From the NCBI GenBank assembly GCA_039619475.1, contig CM077115.1, positions 500,485,352 to 500,549,351 on the forward strand: a stretch of 64,000 nucleotides of DNA, in the 5' to 3' direction. This DNA is from Icerya purchasi (Eukaryota; Arthropoda; Insecta; Hemiptera; Monophlebidae). How positions within the stretch are numbered: the first letter of the stretch is position 1; each line of letters opens with the position of its first letter. Position numbers and translations under genes: made by a program. The notes below the pieces were generated by a model that was given only the letters and a program-made list of their open reading frames with translations, made no database searches and was not told where the DNA came from. Shown piece after piece: positions 12,701 through 63,448 of this stretch.

Positions 12701-15700
12701 AGGAATGGTCAGGTAGAGTGGAACAGATTCAAGAGCGGTCATAGGGTCGGATATAATTAAAAATTTAGAGGAAAGGTGATTAGAGGAAATGAAAATAATG
12801 GAACGTAGGCTAGTCATTAATTCGCTTATGAATACTGAGCAGGAAGGAGACAGACGAAAAGACTCTAAAAGGTCAAAATCTGGAAGGATAAAAGAGCTAT
12901 CAACACTAACCGACCTCTTCGAACCATCTGTAAATACGGGGTTACGTGAGATGGAAATTACGAATTGATAGTACTGTGGAATTCCTCACTCTAATTAGGG
13001 CTTGTGGAGGAAAGTTGAAGGACGTAGGTCTAGTAAACATTTTAGGATGATGGCAGAGATCGGCGAAATTAGAAATAGGGAAGATTGTCAGAGGAATTGT
13101 GTAAGAGCAAAACAAACTAAGCCGAAACGAGATGTGGAATAAAATAGGTGTTTTTCTAGGTATGAAACACCAGCTCCTAGAGATGGAGAAAAGTAAGAAT
13201 GGATAAGAGTAGAGGAGGTGAGTGGAAGACGCTTAGCAAGAAAACGATGCCAAATAGGATCTGCGAATAGAAAGGACTGGCGTATTAGATCCAGTAAGGA
13301 CTGCTGAGCACCAAGACATAGACGAAGGCAAGAATTTTGGATTACATCTAATTTAGTGAGTCCGGACTTCGTTGAACAATCGTAGTAGAGAATGAATAGT
13401 AATCAAATTTGGAATGGATGATGGATTTGTATAGAAAAATAAGGATGATCACTACCCCATTTGATTGGAGATAGGGCCTTCAGCAAGTTTATCCTTTTGA
13501 CTGCAGAAGAGGAAAGATATTTGATATATTTGAAGAAGGATAACCGACGTCAAGGACGATACTGAGATAACAAAAAAAAATAACGCAAAAGGGAGATATA
13601 TTGGCTCCCTGAACTTGCTTCTGGTTATCTATCCCTATAGATAACCAGAAGCAAGTTCATACATCTTGTCATTCCGTTCTCTTTGTCCGTCATTCCTCTA
13701 CTTAGTTCTTTCATATTATTTATCTCTGACCGAATTTGTCTATTTAACTGTTGATTCTTTCCCTTATCTTTGTTATCGCGTCCAAAAAAAAAAAACAAAA
13801 AAAAAACAAACCATCTCGTTTAGTGCTCTTCAAGCCGATAGCCAGAGGAGGAAGTACGAAATTTGAAACACACCTTTCGAAACTTTTCCGGGAGTATTTT
13901 ACGGAATAAACAAAAAAGTATCCATGGTCTTAACGAAACGAGAAATTCGGAGGTTCACTTTGGCATGTTATCTATTCGGGTTTATAAATTTTTGTTTTTA
14001 TAAAAAATATATAAATGAAGTAAAACATACAAAAAAAATCTTATAGAGTTAATAGCAAACTTTTGGATTACTTGGCAATAAAATGAGTGGTAATATTTAT
14101 AGAGTTGCCAGATTATTAAATTTTTTTTCGCGCCATAAACTATTTATAGGACCATAATCATTTTGCCTTCCAGAGTGCCCGTCCATTGATGTTAATTATG
14201 GCTGTGCACCTGGTATTTTTTGTTTTTTGATTTAATTTCAATCAAGTTTAAGTTCGCTAATTAAATAATTTCTTAATTTTTGGTGAAAAATTGAAACAAT
14301 TAGCAGTCCTACCTGCATCCACAATTGCCTCGTGCGCGACTTCTAGTAAATTCCTAATTTGCGGATCCATCCTTTCTGCTTGCTTGGGACTTATATTGAA
14401 AAATTCAGCATCGAATCGCGACAGATCTTTCAGCATGCCGTATGTGGTTAACGCTCCGTACAGACCTAAATGCGCAATTAAAAAGTATTTTTTTTTTTCG
14501 TTCTATACGCAATACGGTTACATTAAAACACAATATACCGAAATAAAATACGTAGTACATGTTGCACAGGTAAAGCTATTTTGCTATTCTTTTGTCGCCG
14601 TTAAAGACTTCCGTCATAATACTACTGATATAGTATTTTGGTATGTTTTAGAATTTTACAACATCAATAGTTTTCAACGATTTTGTAATTAGCCTTTTTT
14701 AATATGGCAATAATAATAAAACTCGACCTTTCAGTTCCACTGTCGACCTTGGAATTTCTAGAACGTCTCGTATATTTCTTGTAGTATTTTAAACATCGTT
14801 GTTTGTGAAAGTTTCATATTATGATTTTAGATTTTTCAATAAAATTCGGTATAAGAAATTAGATTAAATTAAATTTTTCTAAACATTTTTAGTGATATTT
14901 GGCAGCAGAAGATGCTAAATATTTTTGTTTTTAACACAGCGCCGTATTAATGATTAATTTTATCAGTTTTTCCTTTTCCTAGTGTACTTTTTGATCTGTT
15001 ATTTTTGCATATTGTGTGGGCCTCTCCTTATAGCAAAGAGACATAAGAGTTTTTTCTTTTACTTCTTTTCGTGACGGGATAGATTCAGTAGATGTCAAAA
15101 GGAAAATAGTTGTCTGAGGCTACGGCAGATAGTAGTGTAAAAACCCAATTAAAGCAATATTGACTTCCTTTTTTTTTCTTTTTTTTTTTATGTGCAACAT
15201 CTATACATTTCGTGAACAATTATTACATGTGCGTTAACGATGTAATCAATTTAAACTGGATTGTGATATAGTCCATCGACCACTCTTCCGCTATTGTTCT
15301 TTCAGATGGTCACGTAGAGGTATTTTGTTTTTAATCTTTCTGATCGCTCATCTACATCATGTCATTTTCATAATAATAAGTTTTCGCGATCTTTCGATTT
15401 CATGAAAAACTTACAGCACCTGGTAGTTTTGGCTTCTTTGGTGACCAGAGAAAATCATGATGTGTGTATTACTCAATTCGCGGCAAATCACAAAACCGCT
15501 TTTCACAATATTTTTGACTGTGATGCCTGACACTGTTTCATACGCAGTTCTGCATTTTGATTCCACATGTCCCCATTGGAGGTGGTGGTTTTGACTCGCC
15601 ATTTAGCAATGTTGGTATAATTCCGTATCACCTGACACACGATTAATCGTTATCCAAGCATAATCCGAGATAATAAACAACCATCTTTAGAATAGACGAT

Positions 15701-37660: not shown

Positions 37661-38291
37661 GGTGTCACTCGCCATTTGCACTGCCTAACTCCTATCTGCA
37701 GCCTTCTCGTGGCGGACCTGTTAAGTCAAGCAACATAGTTGGGCGACAACAAATGCGGAAGGAGGCAAGTGGATAACAACCCCACTTGTGCAGGCAATAA
37801 CATTCAAGATATTAACCATTAAATCATCAAATAAATAAATAATCAATAATGTGAAGAAAAAAAAAATATGTATATCAATTTATAAAAAAAAAAAAAAAAA
37901 AAAAACTTCATTACACGATTCGAATTCAACTGTCCTTCTGCCTAGTTGTATCGCGATTGCCCCAATTGTTGTGCTTCGGCATACCATTGGAACTGGCATC
38001 GCTAATACTCGCAGACGTAATTGCGGATGTGCAACCGCTTTCTCGATAACTTTACGCACTGCAAGGTGCACATTTCAAGTCCTGCGGCGATGGAAAGACG
38101 GTGACGGAGGCAGGCCTGGTTAGCTAGAAGCCTCTAGCTGAATTTCTGCACGTAAGGCGGCGTGTGACTTTGGTCGCTTGTCAGCATAGTGGAACCGACG
38201 CTCGACAGCATCATGCGCGACGAAGCAGCCTCTTCAGGAACGCACTGCTTCCCCTACATCAAGGGAAAGGCCTAGAAAAGGTGGCCTAAAC

Positions 38292-41022
38292 AAAGCCCAC
38301 TATTACTACCTGCCTGGAATACCGCGTCCAGGGGGCACCCAACTCGAGCGGTCGAAACAACAGCAAAATAACTACAAATAAATGTAAGATCATAGACCTA
38401 AGAGTAGCCACTTGGAATGTTAGAACCATGTTGGATTCAAATACCAGTTTAGCAGAAAGGCGAACTGCCATCATAGCCCACGAACTAAAGAAATATAATG
38501 TCGACATCGCGGCACTCAGTGAGACTCGACGCGAAGAAGAGGGGCAGCTATCAGAAATGACCGATGAATATACATTCTTCTGGAAAGGAAAAAGTTCAAA
38601 ACAACCCAGAACTCATGGTGTCGGAATCGCTATTAAAACCAATATTTTGAAAAATCTATCTGAGCTCCCAATAGGCATCAATGAACGTCTCATGACTTTG
38701 CGAATACCTCTTGCCCATGGTAAATATGCCACCGTTATATCAGCATATGCTCCTACATTGATAGCTTCGGATAGCGAGAAAGAGAAATTTTACTACGAAC
38801 TCCAATGCATACTGCGTAAAATACCTAAAGCAGATAAGATCATCCTACTCGGTGACTTTAATGCTCGCGTTGGAAACCGTTTTACCATCTGGCCAGAAAC
38901 TGTTGGCAGGTGTGGAATTGGGAAAGCTAACGACAATGGCTTATTGCTCCTTAATTTATGTGCAGAAAACGACCTGGCTATAAAAAACACATACTTTAAA
39001 CTGAAACACAAGTACATCGCAACATGGAAGCACCCACGTTCAAGACATTGGCATCTTATTGACTACATTATAGTTAGAAAGTCGGACATCCGAGACGTCA
39101 AAATAACACGTGTCATGAGAGGAGCGGAAGCCGATACAGACCATCGCATGGTGCTCTCTAAAATGCGAATTCACCTACGGCCGCGCACAATGTATGCTCC
39201 AGCTAGGAGTTGCGCTAGGAAATTAGCTATAAACAATCTTCGTAACCAAGTAATACTGAATAAAACCACGCACGAATTACATAGGGCAATCTCCCAAATA
39301 AACCTGGAAGCACAGAGAACAGTTGAGAACTTTTGGAACATCACCAAGAGTTCTATCTACCAATGCTGCTCGTTATCGCTTGGAAAACAAGTAAATGCAA
39401 AGAATGATTGGTTTTATGATAACCAGCTTGAGATTCAAAGACTCATAGTAGCCAAAAACAAAGCGTACAACAGATATCTGAGCAAGGAATCGGTCGAAAA
39501 TGGAATAAAGCTCAAAGAGGCTAAAGCCACGTTACAAAGAGCAACTAGGCAACTTAAAAACGAATGGTGGACGGAAAAAGCGAACCAAATCCAAAATTTT
39601 ATTAATCAGAACGACCTAAGGAGTTTTTACTCGGCACTCAAGAAAGTCTATGGACCAACCTACGAGAACATTACTCCAATTAAAGATAAAGAAGGTAATC
39701 GCTTAGTTAATCTAAATGACATTACAAACAGGTGGCGGGAATACTATTGTGAACTACTAAATCATGAGCGTCCAACAATGGAAAGTATAACAGACCTTCT
39801 TCCGCCGTACGATGAATATACCAACATGGATTATAAGCCAGAAGTATTCGAAATTAAGAAGGCAATAGACGGACTTAAAAATATGAAAGCACCCGGTCCC
39901 GATGGCATCCCAGCAGAGATCTTGAAAATTGGTGGACTCAATCTTGCAGAACATCTAAGGAAAATGTTTGAAATGATCTGGGATCAAGAAACTGTACCCC
40001 TGGACTTTGGTTTATCAATGATTGTAAACATTTATAAGAAAAAAGGGGAAAAGGAAAATTGCTCAAACTATCGGGGAATATCGCTACTGTCCACAACAGG
40101 TAAGGTGCTAGCTAAGGTCATTTACGACCGAATCGCGCCAATTTTCGAAAGAATTATGCCCGAATCGCAAGCAGGTTTCCGCAACAACCGAAGCTGCATC
40201 GACATGATTTTCACGGCAAGACAATTACAGGAAAAGGCTTTTGAACAACAGACCGGACTCTGCATGGCATTTATAGACTTGACAAAAGCATTCGACTCCG
40301 TCAATCGCAGGACTCTCTTTAATATCCTGATCAAACTTGGATGTCCAAAGAAGATTGTTCGTATAATAATCGCCTTATACTCAAACAATAAAGCAGCAAT
40401 TATGACAGGCGGTAAAATCTCTGACCAGTTTGGCATTGGTACGGGAGTTAAACAAGGCTGTATTTTGGCTCCACTTTTGTTCAACATCTTCATGGCAGCT
40501 TTCATGTTCGTCGTCGATAAACGTCTTCATACCAGAGGCGTCAGCCTTAACTACAGGACGGATGGAGGCTTACTTAATCTGGATAGACTTAAAGCGAAAA
40601 CTAAGGTGTCAAAGTTCAGGGTCATCGAATTGCAATATGCTGACGACTGTGTCATCGTGGCACGTAATAAGACCGATCTACACATGATGCTGGAGGTACT
40701 GAATGAAACATACAAAGATTTTGGCCTTGAAATAAACATCGATAAAACCAAATTACTCAGCAACGAAACCTCACCTACAAATAACATACAGATACGCGGA
40801 AAAATATTAGAGCAGGTAGACACCTTTCAAAATCTCGGTTCGTTCCTAAACCACAAAGGAACAATAGATGACGAAATACAAAATAGAATCAAGTGCGCCG
40901 CTTCAGCCTTCGGCCGGCTAAAGCGCAAGGTGTTTTATAATAAGGATTTGTCGATCGCCACCAAAGCAGCAGTTTATCATGCTATCGTTATCCCGTCTTT
41001 GTTATTTGGAGCCGAAACATGG
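38292..41022 (+). CDS. LINE ORF2: endonuclease/reverse transcriptase, interrupted at its 3' third
   Basis: Encodes the endonuclease-RT of the LINE. About 910 codons are open before the insertion; the reading frame then runs only a few codons into the inserted element (stop at 41,034). Deleting 41,023-53,978 and one copy of the 6-bp duplication puts AETW in frame with TLYRRHIKKLEQF at 53,985. All RT landmarks including YADD are intact, so the copy was probably competent or close to it when hit. Confidence 0.9.
41017..41022. repeat. Target-site duplication ACATGG, left
   Basis: Direct 6-bp repeat flanking the palindromic element; paired with 53,979-53,984. Its removal with the element restores the LINE frame. 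Confidence 0.93.
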
Positions 41023-41079
41023 AGTAGTGTATAAATGGGGCAGCTGGGGACTCTGACGTCACCAACCCCTATTTGTGCC

Positions 41080-41215
41080 CCCGGTGCTCAAAACTCACCC
41101 CAATTTGTTCCCCGGTGCTCAAAACTCACCTCAATTTGTGCCCAGCTGCTCAAAACTCACCCCAATTTGTTCCCCGGTGCTCAAAACTCACCCCAATTTC
41201 TGACTTGGAGCCCAA
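41080..41215 (+). repeat. About 36-bp minisatellite in the left terminus
   Basis: Tandem units of the form GGTGCTCAAAACTCACCCCA plus ATTTGTTCCCC, about four copies, with diverged units continuing to about 41,520 (CCCAAAGTTACCCCAA, GTGCTGAAAGTTCACCCC). Mirrored at 53,786-53,921. Proline-rich ORFs over it are by-products. Confidence 0.9.
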
Positions 41216-43580
41216 AGTTACCCCAAGTTTCCCCCCAGTTCCTCCTAGTTCCCCACAATTTTCCTGGACGGTTGCTGAAATTTCACCCCAAATTCTCATC
41301 AGGGTGCTAAAAATTAACCCCATTTTCTCTTTTAGAGCCCAAAGTTACCCCAATTTATGTCCATGCGATCAATTTTAACCCAAGTCCCCCCCCCCCCCAA
41401 TTTTCCTGGACAGTTCCGCTAATTCGATCCCTAATTCCCATCAAGGTAGACAAAATCCACCCCAATTAGCGTACAGGTGCTGAAAGTTCACCCCAATTTG
41501 TATCCATATGGTTAAAATTCACCCAAGTTTCCCCAAAATTTCTTCAAATTTTTCCGATTCCCCGTTCATACTGCTATCTGTAAATGCGCTCGCACCGTTT
41601 CCACGCATATGTTCAACATAGCCTTAGCAGTGTACTCGCTTTCCCATACCCGCGCCTTCGATCATCATGTGTATGTATTATATATGACTCTGTGTGTAAT
41701 ATATGTAGCATACTTTTTAATTTTAATTTTTCGAGGTTGGGAGGGGTAAAATTTTGCCGGAGTGATAAAAACGTTTGAATCTCAACACTTAGAACCCAAA
41801 ATTTAAAGGAATTTTCCGAGTCGTGCTCTGTTCCGACATTTTTTTTTTTTTTAATTTTATTTTTAAGGAAAATATTTGAACGTTCCATCAGTCGAATGAG
41901 AGCGGGCGAGTGTGCTGCTACGGGATGTATTATGTAAGCGCGAGCGCGGCTGTAATGGAAATATTTAAATGTTCCAGCAACTAGTTGAAACTGTCACCAG
42001 GTGAGGTGAATTCCAGTCGTTCGTTCGAAATTAACTAGCCAATCATCTATGCTCACTCTCACACGCCACCGATAGAAACCTGTTCACGATCGCTACACGT
42101 TCACACACGCACACATATACACCGCCACCTGATATATATTTTTCGTCTTTTTCCGTTTCCGATCTTATACTTAATCCGTTGTAATTTTTTTTATATTTTT
42201 ATGTATTCTCCGTTCATTGCAAAAGCACACCGTCCATTCCTGCACTCATATCAAGCATTGAGTTAACCTGTACAAAGGTACACTGTACTATTCCATGCAC
42301 GCTCCGTCGCCACTGAAATAAACACCGCGATATCACTCCCACACACACACACACACACCAACACTTCGTACATATTTTATTTTCGAGTCAAAATATTAAA
42401 GAATTAGCCTAAGTATATTTTTCTTTTACACTTCTGTTTATTTCTTCCGAACGTTCATAATTTTTATATTTTTTTTTGTTTCTCCGATTCTAAAAATTAA
42501 TCTGTCAATGTATTAGCCACTCTTTCATTCGCATTCATCTGCTACCAGTAGTTCTCTTGTCGTTCGTAATAACTTTTTCAAGTCTAATATTATAGAATCA
42601 GCCTAATTATATTTTTTTTTCGCTGCCAATCATTTCCTCCGTCTGTTGATAATTTTCTTATTTTATTTTTTCTCAGGTTCTAAAAATAAATCCATTGATA
42701 TCTTCACTAGTATGATTGCGTAAACATCTTCTAACGGTATTCCTCATATTGTTCATAATAATTTTTCATGTCTATGTATTATGGAATTAGTCTAAAATAT
42801 ATTTTTTCCCCTCTAAAGTCTTTTTCCAATCGTAAGTATTCAAAAATTAATTCGAGTATATTTTTATTTAACGCTGTTTCATATTTTCCCTCTCCCCTAT
42901 CCACCCTACACAAATTTCAATTCTTTTCTATTATTTTTCATGAGTACCCCCCCCCCCCCCCCCCTGAAACTACAGTGAAACCATACCATTCATTCCCACG
43001 CATCCATTTGCTAACAATGATTTTCTCATCATTCATAATAATTTTTTTCGAATCTGTTAGTTTAAGATTATTTCATTTTTTTCAAACTCTAAATATTTTT
43101 TTTTTTTTCATTATCTTCCATATTTTCCCACAATATGTCCGCATACGCTCATAATGCAAAGGTACTCTACTTATTTCCTTGCATGAATGTTGCTATGTCG
43201 TTGATTTCGATCATGTGTCAAGGTCATCGAGTCTGCCCGGATCTTCTCCTTCATATCTTTTGTAGAAAAACCGGTTGACATGTACACACCTACACATAAA
43301 CACCCATAACCTAAAGATCACCTGTAAATTTCGTTCATTTGCGTATGCAACCAGCTTTCACCAAAGGAATGTGGTTTTTCTGGTGCAACCCGCCCTCTTC
43401 AAAGACATGCATCGAGCTAGAATCTCGAAAGGATCTGTTCAGGCAGTCAGTATTAGTGTTACATTAAACGTGTAGAATTTGTTGAAGCTGTGTTCTTCAC
43501 GCATTAATAAAAGTTTGCTCTAACATTAAAAGTAATAATTTTCTACATTCTTAGTAAAAAGTTAAAAATATTATTCAAAC

Positions 43581-44429
43581 ATGAATAACAATACCGATTC
43601 GATTGATATTAAAGTCGACGAATTTATTCAGAATTCATTTTCGAGTGATAGTGTCTCGCATACAACTTCATCACCTCAATCACAGCAATCAGATGATGGT
43701 TATACAGCAGAAGGATCAACATCTTCTGTACATAATATCATTGGTCCTGTATTATTATCAGAACAAGCAGATATAGCGGAATATTTTGTAGATATCAGCA
43801 TCCATATAGATTGTGATTATGGTTTTCGAGTAACCGAACTAGCAATGATTGATATGTCTGGCGGAAAGTGTTTTCATACACTGTATAAGTCAAGCAGAGC
43901 ATGGCATTCATCAAAAACGCCACATTTACAATGTTCTTCGATGAGTCATCACTTGAAAAATCCTTCATTATTTCCCTGTCGGGAAGAAACATTTATAGCA
44001 CGCGATATATTCACGATAATATCTCAAAAACCGAGAGCTCGCATATATATTTTAACGGTATATGCTAAACTTACACTAATGGAACTTAACGAAAAGTCTG
44101 AATTGTTGAGTGATTTAGACTATGAAATCGTTAATATGGATAAAGTCTTTCGACTACATAGTATTGAGAATCTACATGAAGAGTATTTTGATATAAGCAA
44201 TTTGATAACCTGTAAACATCATAATGAGAATGATAGTTTTCATTGTGCAGCGAAAAACGTTATGGTAATGAAGGCCTGGTACGATCATGTTGTCCATCCG
44301 CTGAAGCTTATGAATAATCTCAATATAAATGATTTAAGTCAGTTGTTCATTACAGCCACCAAAGAAATGATAATTACATTATTTCCAAGTTGTGTTGGAG
44401 ACATTTATGCATTTCTACAGATAGATTAA
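43581..44429 (+). CDS. Unknown 282-aa protein of the palindromic element, left copy
   Basis: The only substantial gene in the arm. Residues 1-50 are Ser/Gln-rich and probably disordered. A folded part follows from about residue 60, including YGFRVTELAMIDMSGGKCFH and a Trp-His pair at 108-109. Residues 211-233 hold CKHH...HC...W, a possible metal site (C211, H213/H214, H221, C222). From memory only, the order (FxVxELAxxD, then C..H....C..K....W) resembles a widespread uncharacterised arthropod protein class linked to selfish elements. After the stop, another frame continues TDRLKPDDMIKSLLPCYEHE then FVYEVC (to 44,508), so the original C-terminus was longer. No signal peptide or membrane helix. 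Role unknown. Confidence 0.8.
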   Translation: MNNNTDSIDIKVDEFIQNSFSSDSVSHTTSSPQSQQSDDGYTAEGSTSSVHNIIGPVLLSEQADIAEYFVDISIHIDCDYGFRVTELAMIDMSGGKCFHTLYKSSRAWHSSKTPHLQCSSMSHHLKNPSLFPCREETFIARDIFTIISQKPRARIYILTVYAKLTLMELNEKSELLSDLDYEIVNMDKVFRLHSIENLHEEYFDISNLITCKHHNENDSFHCAAKNVMVMKAWYDHVVHPLKLMNNLNINDLSQLFITATKEMIITLFPSCVGDIYAFLQID

Positions 44430-44716
44430 AACCGGATGATATGATAAAATCACTTCTACCATGTTACGAGCATGAGCATGATGAAGAATTCGTCTATGAG
44501 GTGTGTTGATCAATAGAGCAACAGGTAGAAAACCTAGTAGTTTACGAGACACAGCATGTTCAAAGAAAAAAAACGAACTAGCACAAGCAGATCAGAGTTG
44601 CAACATACGAGTGGGAGATATATTCTCGAGAACAACAGCTTGATTATAAAAAACGTCGAAGATACATGTATCTATCTGTGAACAATTATCACATCAAACA
44701 TAAAAAGGTTGACTAA
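44399..44716 (+). pseudogene. Frameshifted continuation of the 282-aa gene, left copy
   Basis: One frame off the main ORF. It reads ISTDRLKPDDMIKSLLPCYE through EFVYEVC then a stop, and after two further stops VATYEWEIYSREQQLDYKKR and a basic C-terminus to a stop at 44,716. Coding character and the shared register suggest the lost C-terminal third of the same protein. It has the same stops in the right arm (50,602-50,285). Confidence 0.55.
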
Positions 44717-47462
44717 AAGATTATTATTTTCTTTTTTCGTTCATTCTCGCCACTATTACCACTGGCGCCCCCACTGTCAAGACCTCTAAACATACATTAC
44801 TAACCTCGCCAACACTATAATATTTTTTCTCTGTGTTACTAAATTAACCCAAGTATATTTTTATTCATTTGTTACACAAACATTTGTTCAAATCTTTTGT
44901 AATATATCGTACACACATTTATAGCCCACAGACACTACTTGCTTCATTACCACGAATACATCTCTTTCATTCTCACTTATCATAACATAGTTTTTCCTGA
45001 AATTGTAAAAAAATTCTCTTTGCTCCATTCTTCCAAGTTTTCCAAATTTCAAATCATGCATAATTATTTAAGAATCAAATTAAGTATATTTTATCATTTC
45101 CAAAAAATTAATCATCTCTGTACAAGGCATTAACTCATTTTTCAAAACAAACATATTATTTTTTAATCTATCATACATATCATTTTTATCATTCAAATTT
45201 TTTTCTGAATTCACAAATAGTTAACCTATAGAAAACATATTATTGTAAACATACATGACGAAGTCACTCCTCATAATTACATCATGAATTCATTTTTTTT
45301 TCATTTTTTTTTTTTTTACCATCATGAAATTGTAGTAGTGTTTTTAATTTTTTTATTTTCCATACATGACAAAAGCAATAAAATCACGACATCTATGAAT
45401 ACACACCATATGCTTCCAATAACCTATCATGCATTTTTTTAAATTAGTCCAAGCATACTATTTTTTCAATAACAAAGCCGATCATACATAATTTTTTCTT
45501 CTATATAATCACTAATCTATGAAAACACTTGATTCGTTTTACTCATACTGTAGCAACCACTCCTTTTCCCTCATGCTAACAAACTTCAAAATTTAATAAT
45601 ATAACACGAAATTAATTTAAATATCTGTTCATGCTATTAAAATTAATATATCAATCTTTACATTCCTTTTGTACATTTCTGAAAAAATCCTACAACATGT
45701 TTTAAAATTAATCGAAGTATACTATTTTATTACCTAAAATCAATTATTCTCTCATACAGTTTTTTCCAATCATCCATAATGTTTTTTCTGTATTGTCATT
45801 ATTACAAAGTCATACAAAACAACAACACATTTTTAATCATAATGAATCCTTCATTCCATTCCGTTCATGCTATATACCATTATCATTCAATTCAACGTTA
45901 TGAAATTAGTCTAAATATACATTCATGCTAGCAAAGTTATTATCTCACCCTTTGCATTGTTCCAAGATGATTTATTTGACATTTTTTCTTTAAATTTCCC
46001 TCATACTATTATTTTTGAAATGTAGGATGATGACTATGATTAGAATTCATGATTATGAAGAGAGAGATGCATGGTGAAATTGTATTGTCATTATATGCGA
46101 GATGATGTGTGTTTGTGGGTGAGTATGGATGCATGTAAAATATATGAGTGTGTTAGTAGAAAACATCCGTTCATGCGTGAACAGAAGTACAGATACAGTT
46201 ATAGAATGAGAGAGGTAAAAATATATATTTTGTTATGTTTGATATGTGCATGATAAAGAGGTTAACAAAGAATAATCACATTACCCTCACAACTTAGACA
46301 TTGAGTTTTACCTTTGCAATATTTTAGATGTAAAAGCAGTGACATTGACATGTGGTAAACGTTTTCATCACTTTTGACTAATTATAACCAATTTTCCAAC
46401 ATTTCTCTTCGTTTCTCCTACATTTTAATACTTTTACACCGTTTCAGTCAATTTTTGCTATTTAATGCCATTTTTTCCAGTGTTTTTACCACCTTTCTCA
46501 CAATTTTCATCATTCTTTCATCATCTTTGTTAGGTTTTTTCTTACAACTCTTTAACATTTCGATCGTTGCTAGTGATAACCATCATTATTTATGCTTTCA
46601 ATCCTTCCACTTCAGCAATGCACACATACAGCTTAGCAATCGCCGCAGCCATTGAACGTTGTAGGACAGCAATCATGATCTCCATTTGATTATTGGGATT
46701 TAAAAGTCACATCTTTGAACGCTTGATCTAATGCATCAACATGATTTTTTTTGTATTCGCCCACCCGCTGCTGGAGGTTCCACTTAATATTCTCAACAGA
46801 CTATCATACAGTCGTTTAATAAGAGAATCTGTAAGACCCGAGACATTTACTTAACGTTTTCCCAACACATTTACAGACATACCTTGTACACTAAGGAAAT
46901 CTTTAAACATCTCTGTAACCATTCCTTTTAAGCTGGCGGGAGCAAGGAACTCCTATAAACGTTTATCAATCAGCACTTCATCGTTCATCGCCCTGGTTTC
47001 ACTCGCCGTTGCACAGACATGTAATAAACATTTTCTCCTTTTACAATTTTCTTATGCTATAACACTATTACATCATTTTTCCTCGTTTCTAACTAATTGT
47101 AACCAGTTTTCCATTATTTCTTAGCATGTTCTTCTGTTTAGGACCTTTTGCGCTATTTTTTCATCAATTTATGTTATTTCACATCGTTTTTCTGGTGATT
47201 TTAGTGCCTTTCACACAATTTTACTAATTATTTTCGACTATTTCTTAACATGTTCTTCTGTTTTAGGTCCTTTTTGCACTATTTTTTCATCAATTTATGT
47301 TATTTCACATCGTTTTTCTGGTGATTTTAGTGCCTTTCACACAATTTTACTCAATTTTTCCCCCATCTTTGAAGATTTTTTTTTCATTTATCTCATACAT
47401 TATATCTCCGAATGTGACGATTAGCTATCCTTTAAGTACATTTTTTAATTCAATATAAGTGA

Positions 47463-47850
47463 GGAGTACTTTTCAGGTCGACATGTATACTTCGTGATAT
47501 GACATTCAATTCATTATTAATCTATGTTTCAACAGATTTGTGGTCGGTTGTTGGAGGTTTACAGAACTTTCTGTTGCATTGCTTATAGTATAATGGTTCT
47601 TGTGTGCTAGTAAGATGATGGTGTTTTGTGGGGAATAATAAACATGGGAAAGAGAAGGAGTGCGTCCCATCAAGAAGGGGGAGTGATGCTTTGTAATTAA
47701 CTTGGGTATTGCGCGCATTGCATGGCAGTTATAATATGCTCGAGCAAAAATTAGTCGCTGTACTCGCATGGTGTTCATGTTATTCATTAGATGTTCACAC
47801 TGAGAGATGCAATGGGCTCATCAACAGATGGATCCATGCTATCATTTCGA
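47463..47850 (+). repeat. Diverged direct duplication in the spacer, unit 1
   Basis: Shares GAGTACTTTT...GACATGTATACTTC, TTTACAGAACTTT..., AATAATAAACATGGGAAAGA and TTCACACTGAGA with 48,239-48,622. Each unit has a small ATG frame starting MGKR, 18 codons here, about 50 in unit 2. Whether these are genes is unclear. Confidence 0.75.
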
Positions 47851-48238
47851 TTTTTATAATTGTAATCTGCACTGAGTATGTATGTATTACAACGAACCAA
47901 TCAACTCTGTTACAGATGGTAATGTTTGAGGATAGATAGTGAAACGTTCATTAGAACATGAATGTGTATACAAAGTGTTGTTACATCACATGTATGTCAT
48001 CAAATTAACTAAAATGTTGCGTCTATAGTAAAAAAAAGAAATGAGGGTTTTTCCCTAAGAGGGCGACTATAATAAAATTGATGCGATTTTAGATGGAAAT
48101 GGGAGTATTTTACAGTAAAAACGCTGTTTTGCACCTAAATGGTGAATATTCTAGAGGTTAAACTGCATTTTTCACACAAAATTTGATGTTTTTTATAAAT
48201 GTGGCTATTTTACTCCTACATGGAGTAATTCTGCATGA

Positions 48239-48622
48239 GGAGTACTTTTTGGACTGACATGTATACTTCTTGATGTGGTATTCAATTCATTCTGAAGCTA
48301 TGTTTGAACAGCTTTGTAAATGGTTGGGGGGGGGGAAGTTTACAGAACTTTTCTGCTGCATCAGTTATAGTATAATAGTTTTTATATGCTAGTGAGATGA
48401 AGGTATTTGGTTAGGAATAATAAATATGGGTAAGAGGTGGAGTGCATCCCAATCAAGCATGGGAGAGTATTGTTTGAGAATTAACTCCATTATTTGCACA
48501 CATTGCAATACAATTATAATCAGTTTGGTCAAAATTACTTGTTATATATCGTTCATGTTATACATTAAACATTCACACTGAGAAACGAACTGGACTCTTC
48601 GACATCAAGGTCCATGCGATCA
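48239..48622 (+). repeat. Diverged direct duplication in the spacer, unit 2
   Basis: Second unit, clearly diverged from the first, unlike the near-identical outer arms, so it is much older. Contains the frame MGKRWSASQSSMGEYCLRIN from 48,426 onward. Confidence 0.75.
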
Positions 48623-50284
48623 TTACACTTTTTTTCAACAATTTGTGACGTTTCATACTATTTTTTAATGTTTTGAACGGCTCTTATGATGTATTTCAGC
48701 ACATTTTCACAGGTACAAAGTTCGTAATGCGAAATAATTTGAATTATTTCGACAGTCTTTACACACAAATAAAATACTATACCATTAACACATTCAACAT
48801 GAAACAAATCATTACAAATAGAAATAAACAACGAAATTGCTCAGAAATTTTAATGAAATTCAAGAAGCATAGTGTATATGAAAATGAATATATTCTTTAA
48901 ATCAACACTCCGACAATACAATTTCACCATGCATCTCTCTCTTCATAATCATGAATTCTAATCATAGTCATCATCCTACATTTCAAAAATAATAGTATGA
49001 GGGAAATTTAAAGAAAAAATGTCAAATAAATCATCTTGGAACAATGCAAAGGGTGAGATAATAACTTTGCTAGCATGAATGTATATTTAGACTAATTTCA
49101 TAACGTTGAATTGAATGATAATGGTATATAGCATGAACGGAATGGAATGAAGGATTCATTATGATTAAAAATGTGTTGTTGTTTTGTATGACTTTGTAAT
49201 AATGACAATACAGAAAAAACATTATGGATGATTGGAAAAAACTGTATGAGAGAATAATTGATTTTAGGTAATAAAATAGTATACTTCGATTAATTTTAAA
49301 ACATGTTGTAGGATTTTTTCAGAAATGTACAAAAGGAATGTAAAGATTGATATATTAATTTTAATAGCATGAACAGATATTTAAATTAATTTCGTGTTAT
49401 ATTATTAAATTTTGAAGTTTGTTAGCATGAGGGAAAAGGAGTGGTTGCTACAGTATGAGTAAAACGAATCAAGTGTTTTCATAGATTAGTGATTATATAG
49501 AAGAAAAAATTATGTATGATCGGCTTTGTTATTGAAAAAATAGTATGCTTGGACTAATTTAAAAAAATGCATGATAGGTTATTGGAAGCATATGGTGTGT
49601 ATTCATAGATGTCGTGATTTTATTGCTTTTGTCATGTATGGAAAATAAAAAAATTAAAAACACTACTACAATTTCATGATGGTAAAAAAAAAAAAAATGA
49701 AAAAAAAATGAATTCATGATGTAATTATGAGGAGTGACTTCGTCATGTATGTTTACAATAATATGTTTTCTATAGGTTAACTATTTGTGAATTCAGAAAA
49801 AAATTTGAATGATAAAAATGATATGTATGATAGATTAAAAAATAATATGTTTGTTTTGAAAAATGAGTTAATGCCTTGTACAGAGATGATTAATTTTTTG
49901 GAAATGATAAAATATACTTAATTTGATTCTTAAATAATTATGCATGATTTGAAATTTGGAAAACTTGGAAGAATGGAGCAAAGAGAATTTTTTTACAATT
50001 TCAGGAAAAACTATGTTATGATAAGTGAGAATGAAAGAGATGTATTCGTGGTAATGAAGCAAGTAGTGTCTGTGGGCTATAAATGTGTGTACGATATATT
50101 ACAAAAGATTTGAACAAATGTTTGTGTAACAAATGAATAAAAATATACTTGGGTTAATTTAGTAACACAGAGAAAAAATATTATAGTGTTGGCGAGGTTA
50201 GTAATGTATGTTTAGAGGTCTTGACAGTGGGGGCGCCAGTGGTAATAGTGGCGAGAATGAACGAAAAAAGAAAATAATAATCTT

Positions 50285-50602
50285 TTAGTCAACCTTTTTA
50301 TGTTTGATGTGATAATTGTTCACAGATAGATACATGTATCTTCGACGTTTTTTATAATCAAGCTGTTGTTCTCGAGAATATATCTCCCACTCGTATGTTG
50401 CAACTCTGATCTGCTTGTGCTAGTTCGTTTTTTTTCTTTGAACATGCTGTGTCTCGTAAACTACTAGGTTTTCTACCTGTTGCTCTATTGATCAACACAC
50501 CTCATAGACGAATTCTTCATCATGCTCATGCTCGTAACATGGTAGAAGTGATTTTATCATATCATCCGGTTTTAATCTATCTGTAGAAATGCATAAATGT
50601 CT
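50285..50602 (-). pseudogene. Frameshifted continuation of the 282-aa gene, right copy
   Basis: Mirror image of 44,399-44,716 with the same frame change and stops, showing the lesions predate the duplication or last homogenisation of the arms. Confidence 0.55.
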
Positions 50603-51420
50603 CCAACACAACTTGGAAATAATGTAATTATCATTTCTTTGGTGGCTGTAATGAACAACTGACTTAAATCATTTATATTGAGATTATTCATAAGCTTCAG
50701 CGGATGGACAACATGATCGTACCAGGCCTTCATTACCATAACGTTTTTCGCTGCACAATGAAAACTATCATTCTCATTATGATGTTTACAGGTTATCAAA
50801 TTGCTTATATCAAAATACTCTTCATGTAGATTCTCAATACTATGTAGTCGAAAGACTTTATCCATATTAACGATTTCATAGTCTAAATCACTCAACAATT
50901 CAGACTTTTCGTTAAGTTCCATTAGTGTAAGTTTAGCATATACCGTTAAAATATATATGCGAGCTCTCGGTTTTTGAGATATTATCGTGAATATATCGCG
51001 TGCTATAAATGTTTCTTCCCGACAGGGAAATAATGAAGGATTTTTCAAGTGATGACTCATCGAAGAACATTGTAAATGTGGCGTTTTTGATGAATGCCAT
51101 GCTCTGCTTGACTTATACAGTGTATGAAAACACTTTCCGCCAGACATATCAATCATTGCTAGTTCGGTTACTCGAAAACCATAATCACAATCTATATGGA
51201 TGCTGATATCTACAAAATATTCCGCTATATCTGCTTGTTCTGATAATAATACAGGACCAATGATATTATGTACAGAAGATGTTGATCCTTCTGCTGTATA
51301 ACCATCATCTGATTGCTGTGATTGAGGTGATGAAGTTGTATGCGAGACACTATCACTCGAAAATGAATTCTGAATAAATTCGTCGACTTTAATATCAATC
51401 GAATCGGTATTGTTATTCAT
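50572..51420 (-). CDS. Unknown 282-aa protein of the palindromic element, right copy
   Basis: Encodes the same 282 residues as the left copy with no amino-acid difference, on the opposite strand. The frameshifted C-terminal continuation is also identical (minus strand 50,600-50,493). The two genes face each other across the spacer, 6.1 kb apart. Identity may reflect recent duplication or gene conversion rather than selection on each copy. Confidence 0.8.
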   Translation of the reverse strand: MNNNTDSIDIKVDEFIQNSFSSDSVSHTTSSPQSQQSDDGYTAEGSTSSVHNIIGPVLLSEQADIAEYFVDISIHIDCDYGFRVTELAMIDMSGGKCFHTLYKSSRAWHSSKTPHLQCSSMSHHLKNPSLFPCREETFIARDIFTIISQKPRARIYILTVYAKLTLMELNEKSELLSDLDYEIVNMDKVFRLHSIENLHEEYFDISNLITCKHHNENDSFHCAAKNVMVMKAWYDHVVHPLKLMNNLNINDLSQLFITATKEMIITLFPSCVGDIYAFLQID

Positions 51421-53785
51421 GTTTGAATAATATTTTTAACTTTTTACTAAGAATGTAGAAAATTATTACTTTTAATGTTAGAGCAAACTTTTATTAATGC
51501 GTGAAGAACACAGCTTCAACAAATTCTACACGTTTAATGTAACACTAATACTGACTGCCTGAACAGATCCTTTCGAGATTCTAGCTCGATGCATGTCTTT
51601 GAAGAGGGCGGGTTGCACCAGAAAAACCACATTCCTTTGGTGAAAGCTGGTTGCATACGCAAATGAACGAAATTTACAGGTGATCTTTAGGTTATGGGTG
51701 TTTATGTGTAGGTGTGTACATGTCAACCGGTTTTTCTACAAAAGATATGAAGGAGAAGATCCGGGCAGACTCGATGACCTTGACACATGATCGAAATCAA
51801 CGACATAGCAACATTCATGCAAGGAAATAAGTAGAGTACCTTTGCATTATGAGCGTATGCGGACATATTGTGGGAAAATATGGAAGATAATGAAAAAAAA
51901 AAAAATATTTAGAGTTTGAAAAAAATGAAATAATCTTAAACTAACAGATTCGAAAAAAATTATTATGAATGATGAGAAAATCATTGTTAGCAAATGGATG
52001 CGTGGGAATGAATGGTATGGTTTCACTGTAGTTTCAGGGGGGGGGGGGGGGGGTACTCATGAAAAATAATAGAAAAGAATTGAAATTTGTGTAGGGTGGA
52101 TAGGGGAGAGGGAAAATATGAAACAGCGTTAAATAAAAATATACTCGAATTAATTTTTGAATACTTACGATTGGAAAAAGACTTTAGAGGGGAAAAAATA
52201 TATTTTAGACTAATTCCATAATACATAGACATGAAAAATTATTATGAACAATATGAGGAATACCGTTAGAAGATGTTTACGCAATCATACTAGTGAAGAT
52301 ATCAATGGATTTATTTTTAGAACCTGAGAAAAAATAAAATAAGAAAATTATCAACAGACGGAGGAAATGATTGGCAGCGAAAAAAAAATATAATTAGGCT
52401 GATTCTATAATATTAGACTTGAAAAAGTTATTACGAACGACAAGAGAACTACTGGTAGCAGATGAATGCGAATGAAAGAGTGGCTAATACATTGACAGAT
52501 TAATTTTTAGAATCGGAGAAACAAAAAAAAATATAAAAATTATGAACGTTCGGAAGAAATAAACAGAAGTGTAAAAGAAAAATATACTTAGGCTAATTCT
52601 TTAATATTTTGACTCGAAAATAAAATATGTACGAAGTGTTGGTGTGTGTGTGTGTGTGTGGGAGTGATATCGCGGTGTTTATTTCAGTGGCGACGGAGCG
52701 TGCATGGAATAGTACAGTGTACCTTTGTACAGGTTAACTCAATGCTTGATATGAGTGCAGGAATGGACGGTGTGCTTTTGCAATGAACGGAGAATACATA
52801 AAAATATAAAAAAAATTACAACGGATTAAGTATAAGATCGGAAACGGAAAAAGACGAAAAATATATATCAGGTGGCGGTGTATATGTGTGCGTGTGTGAA
52901 CGTGTAGCGATCGTGAACAGGTTTCTATCGGTGGCGTGTGAGAGTGAGCATAGATGATTGGCTAGTTAATTTCGAACGAACGACTGGAATTCACCTCACC
53001 TGGTGACAGTTTCAACTAGTTGCTGGAACATTTAAATATTTCCATTACAGCCGCGCTCGCGCTTACATAATACATCCCGTAGCAGCACACTCGCCCGCTC
53101 TCATTCGACTGATGGAACGTTCAAATATTTTCCTTAAAAATAAAATTAAAAAAAAAAAAAATGTCGGAACAGAGCACGACTCGGAAAATTCCTTTAAATT
53201 TTGGGTTCTAAGTGTTGAGATTCAAACGTTTTTATCACTCCGGCAAAATTTTACCCCTCCCAACCTCGAAAAATTAAAATTAAAAAGTATGCTACATATA
53301 TTACACACAGAGTCATATATAATACATACACATGATGATCGAAGGCGCGGGTATGGGAAAGCGAGTACACTGCTAAGGCTATGTTGAACATATGCGTGGA
53401 AACGGTGCGAGCGCATTTACAGATAGCAGTATGAACGGGGAATCGGAAAAATTTGAAGAAATTTTGGGGAAACTTGGGTGAATTTTAACCATATGGATAC
53501 AAATTGGGGTGAACTTTCAGCACCTGTACGCTAATTGGGGTGGATTTTGTCTACCTTGATGGGAATTAGGGATCGAATTAGCGGAACTGTCCAGGAAAAT
53601 TGGGGGGGGGGGGGGACTTGGGTTAAAATTGATCGCATGGACATAAATTGGGGTAACTTTGGGCTCTAAAAGAGAAAATGGGGTTAATTTTTAGCACCCT
53701 GATGAGAATTTGGGGTGAAATTTCAGCAACCGTCCAGGAAAATTGTGGGGAACTAGGAGGAACTGGGGGGAAACTTGGGGTAACT

Positions 53786-53921
53786 TTGGGCTCCAAGTCA
53801 GAAATTGGGGTGAGTTTTGAGCACCGGGGAACAAATTGGGGTGAGTTTTGAGCAGCTGGACACAAGTTGGGGTGAGTTTTGAGCACCGGGGAACAAATTG
53901 GGGTGAGTTTTGAGCACCGGG
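53786..53921 (-). repeat. About 36-bp minisatellite in the right terminus
   Basis: Mirror of 41,080-41,215. One unit differs (ACACAAGTTGGGG where the left has the complement of GCACAAATTGAGG), the clearest place where the two arms have diverged. Confidence 0.9.
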
Positions 53922-53978
53922 GGCACAAATAGGGGTTGGTGACGTCAGAGTCCCCAGCTGCCCCATTTATACACTACT

Positions 53979-53984
53979 ACATGG
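53979..53984. repeat. Target-site duplication ACATGG, right
   Basis: Right partner of the 6-bp duplication at 41,017-41,022. Confidence 0.93.
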
Positions 53985-54504
53985 ACGCTATACAGGCGCC
54001 ACATCAAAAAATTGGAGCAGTTTCAACAACGGGTCTTGCGAGCGATACTGAAAATCAGATGGGACGACTTTGTTACGAACGAAGAGGTATTGCGTCGGTT
54101 TAACTCAGAACGAATAGAATCGCTGACCACACGTGCTCAACTACGGTGGACGGGACATGTTTATAAGAATAGAGGATTCCAGGTTACCAAAGCGAATGCT
54201 GTATGGCGAATTAGAAGAAGGAACTAGAAAACGGGGTGGACCTAGGAAGCGTTACAAGGACCATATTGCGTCGCTGTTAAGGAATGCAAATTACTTAGAA
54301 GCTTGGGAAACCGCCGCCTGCGATCGTGTAAAGTGGAGAAGAGTAGTTGAAGCAGTGTCCTTAACTACTGGACCATTAAAAAGAAGAAGAACAGTCAACG
54401 ACAGCTCTAGTCCACCTAACGTTTTCGAATGTCATCATTGTGGTCGCATTTGCTATTCCAAGATTGGTATCATCAGTCATCTCCGCACCCACCCTCAGCA
54501 GTAG
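53979..54504 (+). pseudogene. LINE ORF2, 3' part with C-terminal C2H2 zinc finger and one frameshift
   Basis: Continuation of the ORF split at 41,022: TLYRRHIKKLEQFQQRVLRA, RFNSERIESLTTRAQLRWTG then, after a one-base shift near 54,159 (apparently one extra T in GTTTATAAG), RLPKRMLYGELEEGTRKRGG, KDHIASLLRNANY, and a terminal FECHHCGRICYSKIGIISHL ending HPQQ and a stop at 54,504. The final C-x2-C-x12-H-x3-H is a C2H2 finger, seen at the end of many arthropod LINEs of this type. Confidence 0.9.
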
Positions 54505-61338: not shown

Positions 61339-63448
61339 ACAAGTAATCCACAGTGATTTAAATAGTGGGGTTGCATCCCCTATTTTCTAGGGAGTGAAAA
61401 TACTTTTTTTTTGGTCATAATTATGGAATAAAAAATTATAAAATAACATAGAAAAATAATAAAACTTTTTTTAACACACACAATTAAAAAATAAAGTTGA
61501 CGTGTTTCGGCATTTTCATGAATTTCACCCGTAAAGGAGGTAAACCACCCCTTACAAGAAAAATCAATAAATACATGTATTAAGTGTAATCAAATTTCGT
61601 AAATAATTTGTATGTAAGGGTTTTTGAAGTCGCTGATTACGAATCCATCATCAGATTTTCTTAATTCAAAATGGAGGATCCAATATGGCGGGCAAAAAAG
61701 TCAAAAAAGCTTTAATTTTAATGACAAATTGTATACGAGGATTTTTATGGTCGCTGATTACAAATCTGTTATCAAGTTCTGAAAATTCAAATTATCCTGT
61801 GCTTTATAACCATACAGCCCCAAACCCCTAAAACCCAGACAGGCATTTAGTCTGTGTTTTTTTAAGTCAACAAACCGCAAACTCCTAAACCTCAGACAGG
61901 TCAGAGGCCTGTGCGTTATAACCATACAGCTTCAAACCTCTAAACATCAAACACATACTTTTGCCGATACCGTCTTGCTCTTAAACAAAGATGTTAATTT
62001 ACATGATAGAAACAACATTATTAAAATGCAATCACTTACACATAACCAACTATCAAGTCCCAGATTCAAAAATTCATCCTTATATGCTTGGTATGCAGCA
62101 GGTAACATTAACAAACGGCCAGAGAAAGGGCCGAACTCAAAAGAATTTTGTTTTAACTCTGATAACGTAAATTGCGATATCTGTTGTAAAAGGGCTATTA
62201 TAACGTGCTCGTGGTGCAAAAACACATTATGCTTAACCCACTCCTTTCATTCATTATCATTACTGCAAATCGCATAATAAGTAATTTTATTATAATGAGT
62301 AATACAATTTATATAGTATTAAATACACATTATACAAACAATTAAATCAGAAGCATTATTAAGTTGTGGTGTATTTATATAAATCTACGAAACAATTAAT
62401 ACAGTTAAATACATGATAACATTTAATGATGTGTTGATTTATAAAAATGTTGATAATTATATTTCAGATTCTAGTAATAAATGTTTTGATTTACTCATTG
62501 AATGTAATTCTCCTAACGTATTAAAGTTTATTCTAAAGAAAAATTTATTGTATTACTAATTAACCTTGGCTACTTATTAATTTATTTTTGTTATTATTTG
62601 CAGAATGATTATCGTTAATAAATAGATAAAGAAATAAATAAATACATAAGTTGAACTGTATCAGTAATTTTTTAAATAAGTTAATTATAAGAACGGTTTT
62701 CCAGTATACCACAATGAATAGACCTTTCATCTGCCTGCAGTTTAGGAGTTGTGCGGTTTTAATCATAGGCAATCGGCCTGTATGATGTTTAAAGGTTTGC
62801 GGCTGTATGGTTACAATGCACAGGTCTCTGGCCTGTCTGGAGTTTAGGAGTTTCGAGTTTACCGGTCTAAAAATACAGGCCTCTGGCATGACTAAGGTTA
62901 GGAGTTTAGGGTTTGTTGATTTAGAAAAATACAGGCTAAATGCCTGTCTGGGTTTTAGGGGTTTGGGGCTGTACGGTTATAAAGCACAGGATAATTTGAA
63001 TTTTCAGAACTTGATAACAGATTTGTAATCAGCGACCATAAAAATCCTCGTATACAATTTGTCATTAAAATTAAAGCTTTTTTGACTTTTTTGCCCGCCA
63101 TATTGGATCCTCCATTTTGAATTAAGAAAATCTGATGATGGATTCGTAATCAGCGACTTCAAAAACCCTTACATACAAATTATTTACGAAATTTGATTAC
63201 ACTTAATACATGTATTTATTGATTTTTCTTGTAAGGGGTGGTTTACCTCCTTTACGGGTGAAATTCATGAAAATGCCGAAACACGTCAACTTTATTTTTT
63301 AATTGTGTGTGTTAAAAAAAGTTTTATTATTTTTCTATGTTATTTTATAATTTTTTATTCCATAATTATGACCAAAAAAAAAAGTATTTTCACTCCCTAG
63401 AAAATAGGGGATGCAACCCCACTATTTAAATCACTGTGGATTACTTGT
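61339..63448. mobile_element. Foldback element with 0.6-kb inverted arms
   Basis: Left arm 61,339-61,950 and right arm 62,781-63,448 are inverted copies (ACAAGTAATCCACAGTGATT at the outer ends), around an 830-bp spacer. The inner arms contain a worn minisatellite built on CAGGCCTCTGGCCTGTCTG plus TTTAGGAGTTTG. The left side may extend to about 61,190; the right end is cut by a LINE. The spacer holds a piggyBac-like zinc motif. Confidence 0.85.
61975..62277 (+). pseudogene. Possible piggyBac-like transposase C-terminus in the foldback spacer
   Basis: 100 codons open, ending FCFNSDNVNCDICCKRAIIT then CSWCKNTLCLTHSFH: C-x2-C, C-x2-C-x4-C-x2-H spacing like the Cys-rich C-terminus of piggyBac-type transposases. 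No catalytic domain remains. The assignment rests on this motif alone. Confidence 0.35.

Follow-up and report, generated by a model that had tools for sequence, protein, structure and literature searches.

A 64,000-nt stretch of the Icerya purchasi genome (hereafter the window; GenBank assembly GCA_039619475.1, contig CM077115.1, C1:500485352-500549351) contains, at positions 41023-53978, a large palindromic element with the ends of a Polinton (Maverick). The element belongs to a multicopy family, the members of which are mirror-symmetric and flanked by 6-bp target site duplications (TSDs). We consider it likely that an adintovirus-type Polinton gave rise to it as a palindromic, non-autonomous derivative, which would have originated by copy-back synthesis, had its arms homogenized by snap-back, and been inserted by an integrase acting in trans.

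The window element and the palindrome family

The 2 arms of the window element lie in inverted orientation at 41023-46089 (plus strand) and 48912-53978 (minus strand). Each is 5,067 bp long, and they align over 5,073 bp (the alignment extends a few bases into the TSD) at 99.882% identity, with 4 mismatches and 2 gap openings; given this length and identity, a chance origin of the palindrome is impossible. The termini, AGTAGTGTATAAAT and ATTTATACACTACT, are of the AGTAGT//ACTACT type, and the flanking hexamer ACATGG is found at 41017-41022 and 53979-53984. The element splits an open reading frame (ORF) of a long interspersed nuclear element (LINE) with endonuclease and reverse transcriptase domains, which runs on the plus strand from 38290 to 41022 and continues from 53985 to 54227. 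When the flanks are rejoined with a single copy of the TSD, the LINE frame is intact (991 codons versus 914, reading ...GAETW/TLYRRHIKKLEQFQQ...), and the insertion was therefore precise. An initial annotation of the window had described equal arms of this length, an interval of 2.8 kb, a 6-bp TSD, and the ends, all of which were exact to the base in a self-alignment and at both flanks.

The same annotation had called the interval a spacer. The length holds (2,822 bp, 46090-48911, plus strand), but the segment is the inner part of the left arm, whose mirror counterpart, present in less deleted relatives, is missing here along with the AT-rich center. It matches the inner arms of related copies, which contain it in each of the 2 orientations (in the copy E374, the inner 1.8 kb only), and the window copy is therefore without its center and the inner part of its right arm. 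The junction of this asymmetric deletion lies at 48911-48912, and some 3.3-3.8 kb would have been lost relative to copies of 16.3-16.8 kb; a one-sided loss similar to this one is seen in E56. Within the segment are a 126-bp tandem repeat (47107-47356, plus strand), which related copies carry in both arms, and a direct duplication of about 400 bp (47460-47855 and 48236-48633, both plus strand; 73.6% identity). The palindromes of this multicopy family measure 15-19 kb, and the window copy is a member with a central deletion.

The genome assembly (1,103,370,081 bases) was searched with terminal, inner-arm, capsid, and PolB probes, for which 40 of 804, 40 of 1,413, 100 of 800, and 40 of 131 candidates were scored, respectively. 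Copy numbers given here are lower bounds, and an unpaired match is no proof of a missing mirror, since only part of the candidates was scored. All 40 matches to the 378-bp terminal probe were full-length, at 89-100% identity, and consisted of 13 inverted pairs (window included) and 14 unpaired ends. Eight paired loci were examined by halves, yielding 7 palindromes (E335, E366, E417, E56, E374, E129, and E58) and 1 non-palindrome, while end pieces added 3 palindromes (E331, E7, and E140) and a second non-palindrome. The 40 scored matches to the 811-bp inner probe (46090-46900) were 99-100% identical. They comprised 15 inverted pairs with less than 7 kb between the partners, another such pair with 23 kb between them, and 8 singles, one of which was the window. 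When the terminal, inner-arm, and PolB searches are combined, at least 38 distinct mirrored loci were found, of which 16 were read to both ends. The window and the 7 palindromes examined by halves were read through arms and center. In E331, E7, and E140 the reading covered the outer 3.7 kb of each arm (and, in E140, internal sequence with a gap), and in 5 further palindromes about 0.7 kb per end plus a mirrored piece of PolB.

Exact 6-bp TSDs, each of a different sequence, flank 11 of 11 palindromes including the window, and 16 of 16 when the 5 PolB palindromes are added. A TSD of another length was sought among these 16 related copies and found in none. The termini are AGTAGT in 12 of the 16 and AGTAGC in the other 4 (E58 and 3 PolB palindromes). 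The terminal 30 bp vary between copies, with each copy carrying an identical version at both ends. Arms of the less deleted relatives measure about 8-9 kb, and in E366 and E129 palindromy is unbroken across an AT-microsatellite center (98.3-98.4% over the central 3.3 kb).

Readings of E140 (L033, L034, L036, and L037) as a 28-kb element and as a mirrored nested insertion were set aside; the copy has a 100-N gap in the middle, and therefore only its ends were counted. It is nested, at a GAATTC, in a surrounding palindrome that belongs to a divergent subfamily. The arms of this enclosing palindrome are 99.93% identical to each other and 72-75% identical to the window arm over matching stretches. 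Its TSD agrees at 5 of 6 bases, and it was left out of the 16.

Polintons and Polinton-derived palindromes in the same genome

Genes typical of Polintons were largely lacking from the window element. PolB similarity was absent from 41023-48911 (tblastn), neither a retroviral-type integrase (rve) nor capsid, packaging ATPase, or protease genes were found in the arm, and none of 6 scanned window proteins, 3 of them inside the element, contained a transposase domain. The single ORF of the arm (282 aa; 43581-44429, plus strand, with a mirror copy at 50572-51420, minus strand) shows 24% identity over 217 aa (E 2e-15, one pairwise comparison) to an accessory gene of the full Polinton described below. 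The initial description of an element with no Polinton genes thus stands for polymerase, integrase, and capsid, but not for this distantly related ORF. Seven unbroken copies of the ORF differ by 19 nonsynonymous and 6 synonymous changes, against an expectation of 2.77:1 (p = 1). It changes as expected without selection, which agrees with mobility in trans.

The accessory protein (L024:2453-3379) and the window ORF share invariant E, C, H, and C residues (E28, C152, H155, and C163 in Polinton numbering, with the spacing C-x2-H-x7-C). We take these to be reminiscent of the ECHC site found in the Maelstrom domain, a domain of the piRNA pathway. A poor structural model gave, among its Foldseek matches, chain F of a SIWI-GTSF1-Maelstrom complex; the resemblance is no more than a lead.

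One of the non-palindromes, L023/L024 (C1:136212850-136230828; 17,979 bp; TSD GATTGC), is by its predicted gene content a Polinton. Pfam profiles matched an integrase (rve, 3.4e-12), a packaging ATPase (Pox_A32, 1.7e-9), a PLA2-like protein (3.9e-12), a double-jelly-roll capsid protein (1.1e-75), and an adenain-like protease (Peptidase_C5, 7.6e-4, slightly short of the curated cut-off). Pfam did not find a DNA polymerase domain in its 1,242-aa PolB ORF. The assignment of this ORF to PolB is based on the 43-52% identity of residues 480-1060 to 120 listed relatives, including proteins named DNA polymerase and the PolB of a Ladona dragonfly adintovirus (49%, with 100% of the query covered), and on motifs that we take to be those of a polymerase. 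This relative thus combines an adintovirus-like PolB with a retrovirus-like integrase (rve), 2 features of adintoviruses, both read here from the sequence.

A second Polinton, at C2:225564919-225582893, was read at its ends (TSD GACTAT), with capsid and PolB matches in place, so that a 6-bp TSD was found in both full Polintons read at both ends. The outer 1.09 kb of the window arm (41023-42108, plus strand), which includes 4.3 copies of a 31-bp tandem repeat (41065-41199, plus strand; mirror copy at 53802-53936, minus strand), is 87.9% identical to the terminal inverted repeat (TIR) of L023/L024, making up its terminal ~1.1 kb. The window element therefore has the ends and the TSD length of an autonomous-looking Polinton of the same genome. 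Both the Polinton-type ends and the existence of an autonomous relative and of further copies, to be sought with the terminal sequence, had been anticipated from the window, and all were borne out: the ends by the shared terminal repeat, the relative by the full Polintons, and the copies by the TSD-flanked palindromes.

The capsid-protein search gave 800 candidates, and the 100 that were scored were 87-100% identical, with 72 of them free of internal stops. Many of the scored copies share identical scores. The abundance of these capsid genes and their identical scores suggest recent Polinton activity.

Some palindromes contain PolB themselves. E374 (17,473 bp; TSD CATGTG) is a palindrome with an unbroken 1,240-aa PolB ORF in each arm. 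Over 5.35 kb this arm follows the PolB end of the Polinton in colinear order (96.6%), and then switches, within the accessory gene, into the inner arm that it has in common with the window copy. Among the 40 scored matches to a PolB piece, 26 formed 13 mirrored pairs, 1 was a third copy at a paired locus, and 13 were singles. A capsid match was located near 11 of the 13 singles (10 within about 5 kb and 1 at 13 kb) and near none of the 13 mirrored pairs, among the 100 capsid matches scored. The ends of 5 further PolB pairs were read, and all 5 were mirrored over 0.6-0.7 kb, with lengths of 17.8-18.6 kb and exact TSDs; with E374, 6 PolB palindromes were checked and found to be flanked by TSDs. 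By its predicted genes and its colinearity, this second class of palindrome is built from the PolB end of a Polinton. The suggestion that the element had lost its polymerase applies to the window class, but not to this sister class, which carries PolB twice.

Capsid genes also occur in mirrored arrangements. Five mirrored pairs of the major capsid protein (MCP) gene were present among the 100 scored of 800 candidates, and both centers that were read (L038 and L041) were mirrored. At 2 loci the capsid-gene palindromes turn at other points, within or just past the accessory gene. In one that was traced outwards, the left mirror stops close to where the p311 gene ends, and Polinton similarity continues on the right only; element ends or a TSD were not found for it. 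Probes at the predicted ends of 3 capsid loci detected mirrored ends in none of the 3. A supposed element end in L040 was a chance motif.

Likeness of the arms and proposed origin of the palindromes

In most palindromes, each arm has its closest relative in the other arm of the same copy. In trees of 3 arm segments, the arms of one element were sisters in 8 of 8, 6 of 6, and 7 of 7 elements. Trees of wider sets placed them as sisters in 9 of 13 elements (the 2 Polintons included) and in 7 of 9, and the exceptions were 2 pairs of near-identical elements, E129/E7 and the 2 Polintons. Over the first 3.6 kb of 9 palindromes (3,476 gap-free columns), 134 private substitutions were present in both arms, against 34 sites at which the arms differed. 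Private frameshifts and deletions were likewise found in both arms, and the 3 broken ORFs of the window class (E56, E140, and E58) each carry the same lesion twice.

Polintons are described as encoding a protein-primed PolB and a DDE integrase (PMC6431247). We propose that, starting at one Polinton end, protein-primed synthesis would fold back and copy itself, giving a molecule with like ends. Such a palindrome could then be replicated from its ends by Polinton PolB, which the second class carries itself, in 2 copies. Because the displaced strand would be self-complementary along the whole arm, it could snap back, and repair of the heteroduplex would let one arm correct the other. The linear product would be inserted by a Polinton integrase acting in trans. 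The window copy would have lost its center and one inner arm by deletion. The sister arms, the mirrored mutations, the outer 6.5-kb block of E374 present in both arms, and the occurrence of different turning points are all in line with this model. The initial annotation had considered a head-to-head or hairpin product, or a large element moved in trans. This is supported as far as a genome sequence allows, the dimer or hairpin origin being the conjectural part.

Several observations weigh against this model. E129 and E7, which are independent insertions with different TSDs, share 3 asymmetric arm sites, which suggests that arms are not remade at each transposition. No replication or integration intermediate was seen. 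Direct links between the window class and Polintons are limited to the terminal repeat, the ORF at 24% identity, and short stretches; the arm at 1.1-5 kb from the end and the inner arm at 5-8 kb have no traced origin. Transposition of the capsid-gene class appears unsupported, as the traced example ends asymmetrically and the 3 end-pair probes were negative. Homogenization, finally, could also be chromosomal gene conversion. If conversion were the only force keeping the arms alike, the core palindrome would have formed once, as an inverted duplication, and would be moved by the Polinton integrase with no snap-back. The asymmetries that E129 and E7 passed through transposition fit such a history, as does the common inner arm of E374 and the window class, a core that may have formed once. 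The small distance between arms (0-9 substitutions over the outer 6.6 kb, 99.86-99.99% identity, in all 7 copies measured) would fit it as well. We nevertheless regard it as unlikely, since the capsid-gene palindromes that turn elsewhere at 2 loci show palindrome formation to recur, and since E374 differs from the window class over its whole outer 6.5 kb as a block in both arms, as copy-back predicts.

That the assembler mirrored a single copy is very improbable. Palindromes are difficult for assemblers, and E140 does hold a 100-N scaffold join between 2 copies of one stretch, but N gaps were present in only 1 of the 37 loci L001-L037 (L037, at E140) and in none of L038-L043 (L044-L059 fall outside this count). 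Moreover, TSDs are exact in all 16 palindromes, the flanks beyond the TSD are unlike in 15 of 16 (E140 lies inside another palindrome), the empty LINE site is restored at the window, the arms show true sequence differences, and the assembly was made from HiFi reads with hifiasm (PMC11183206). Equally hard to credit is a Foldback-type element of another superfamily (Galileo/FB-like, P, or MULE) that is Polinton-like at its ends only. Its attraction lies in the long inverted repeats holding internal tandem repeats, as in Foldback and Galileo; it is contradicted by the 6-bp TSDs, by the 88% identity of the terminal 1.1 kb to a Polinton of the same genome, and by PolB-bearing palindromes with the same type of end.

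Going beyond the copy-back and snap-back model, the PolB palindromes might constitute a distinct replicon: a self-complementary Polinton with one end duplicated, which would have its own polymerase from 2 inverted genes and a hairpin as working form, and would parasitize the integrase, and perhaps the capsids, of full Polintons. The gene-poor palindromes, the window copy for one, would then be satellites of the PolB palindromes. We put this forward tentatively, and hold it to be somewhat improbable. If true, symmetric defective viral genomes would have in the PolB palindromes a counterpart that is inherited and transposes.

Other features of the window and comparison with known systems

Two further repeats were observed in the window. 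Adjoining direct tandem units of 2,154 bp at 9209-11362 and 11363-13516 are 100% identical, and represent either a very recent duplication or an assembly repeat. At 61339-63448, inverted repeats of about 575 bp (97.7% identical, with about 1 kb between them) overlap an ORF at 61810-62277, the product of which has what we take to be a cysteine-rich piggyBac-like tail; this is probably another DNA transposon.

Large near-perfect palindromes are generally held to be unstable. In the genome of this insect, mobile elements in the form of mirrored loci, with arms of 5-9 kb, number in the dozens, and if our model is correct they make it possible to test whether arms are homogenized during replication or in the chromosome. 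Where an element holds 2 inverted copies of PolB, one may also ask about long double-stranded RNA and silencing. The ends and the TSD rule of Polintons are known; a search of open-licence papers found no description of palindromic Polinton families.

Ends of the type (AGT)2//(ACT)2 and 6-bp TSDs are described for vertebrate Mavericks (PMC8097293). The window family is like adintovirus-type Polintons in these ends, in TSD length, and in the terminal ~1.1 kb, but has mirrored arms of 5-9 kb in place of a TIR of ~1.2 kb. The window class furthermore lacks PolB, integrase, and capsid. Members of the PolB class carry 2 copies of PolB, with none of the 100 scored capsid matches nearby. Foldback and Galileo elements of Drosophila likewise consist almost entirely of inverted repeats with internal tandem repeats. 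Galileo is described as a member of the P superfamily with 7-bp flanking sequences and TIRs of up to ~1.26 kb (PMC3573991), unlike the window family with its 6-bp TSDs and arms of up to ~9 kb.

Viral genomes also offer analogies to the proposed mechanism. In self-complementary parvovirus and adeno-associated virus (AAV) genomes, one strand can form its own duplex, and the self-folding strand of our model would be comparable; the window family has Polinton ends, and no parvoviral gene was recognized in it. Symmetric defective adenovirus genomes, which were reportedly found in incomplete particles (Daniell, 1976), are protein-primed replicons cut to one end in the form of an inverted duplication, and both these genomes and panhandle repair are analogous to the steps proposed here. 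Unlike them, the Icerya palindromes are inherited, have TSDs at their insertion sites, and have multiplied in the manner of transposons. If our model is correct, they would form a natural record of a protein-primed, virus-like replicon yielding persistent symmetric defective genomes.

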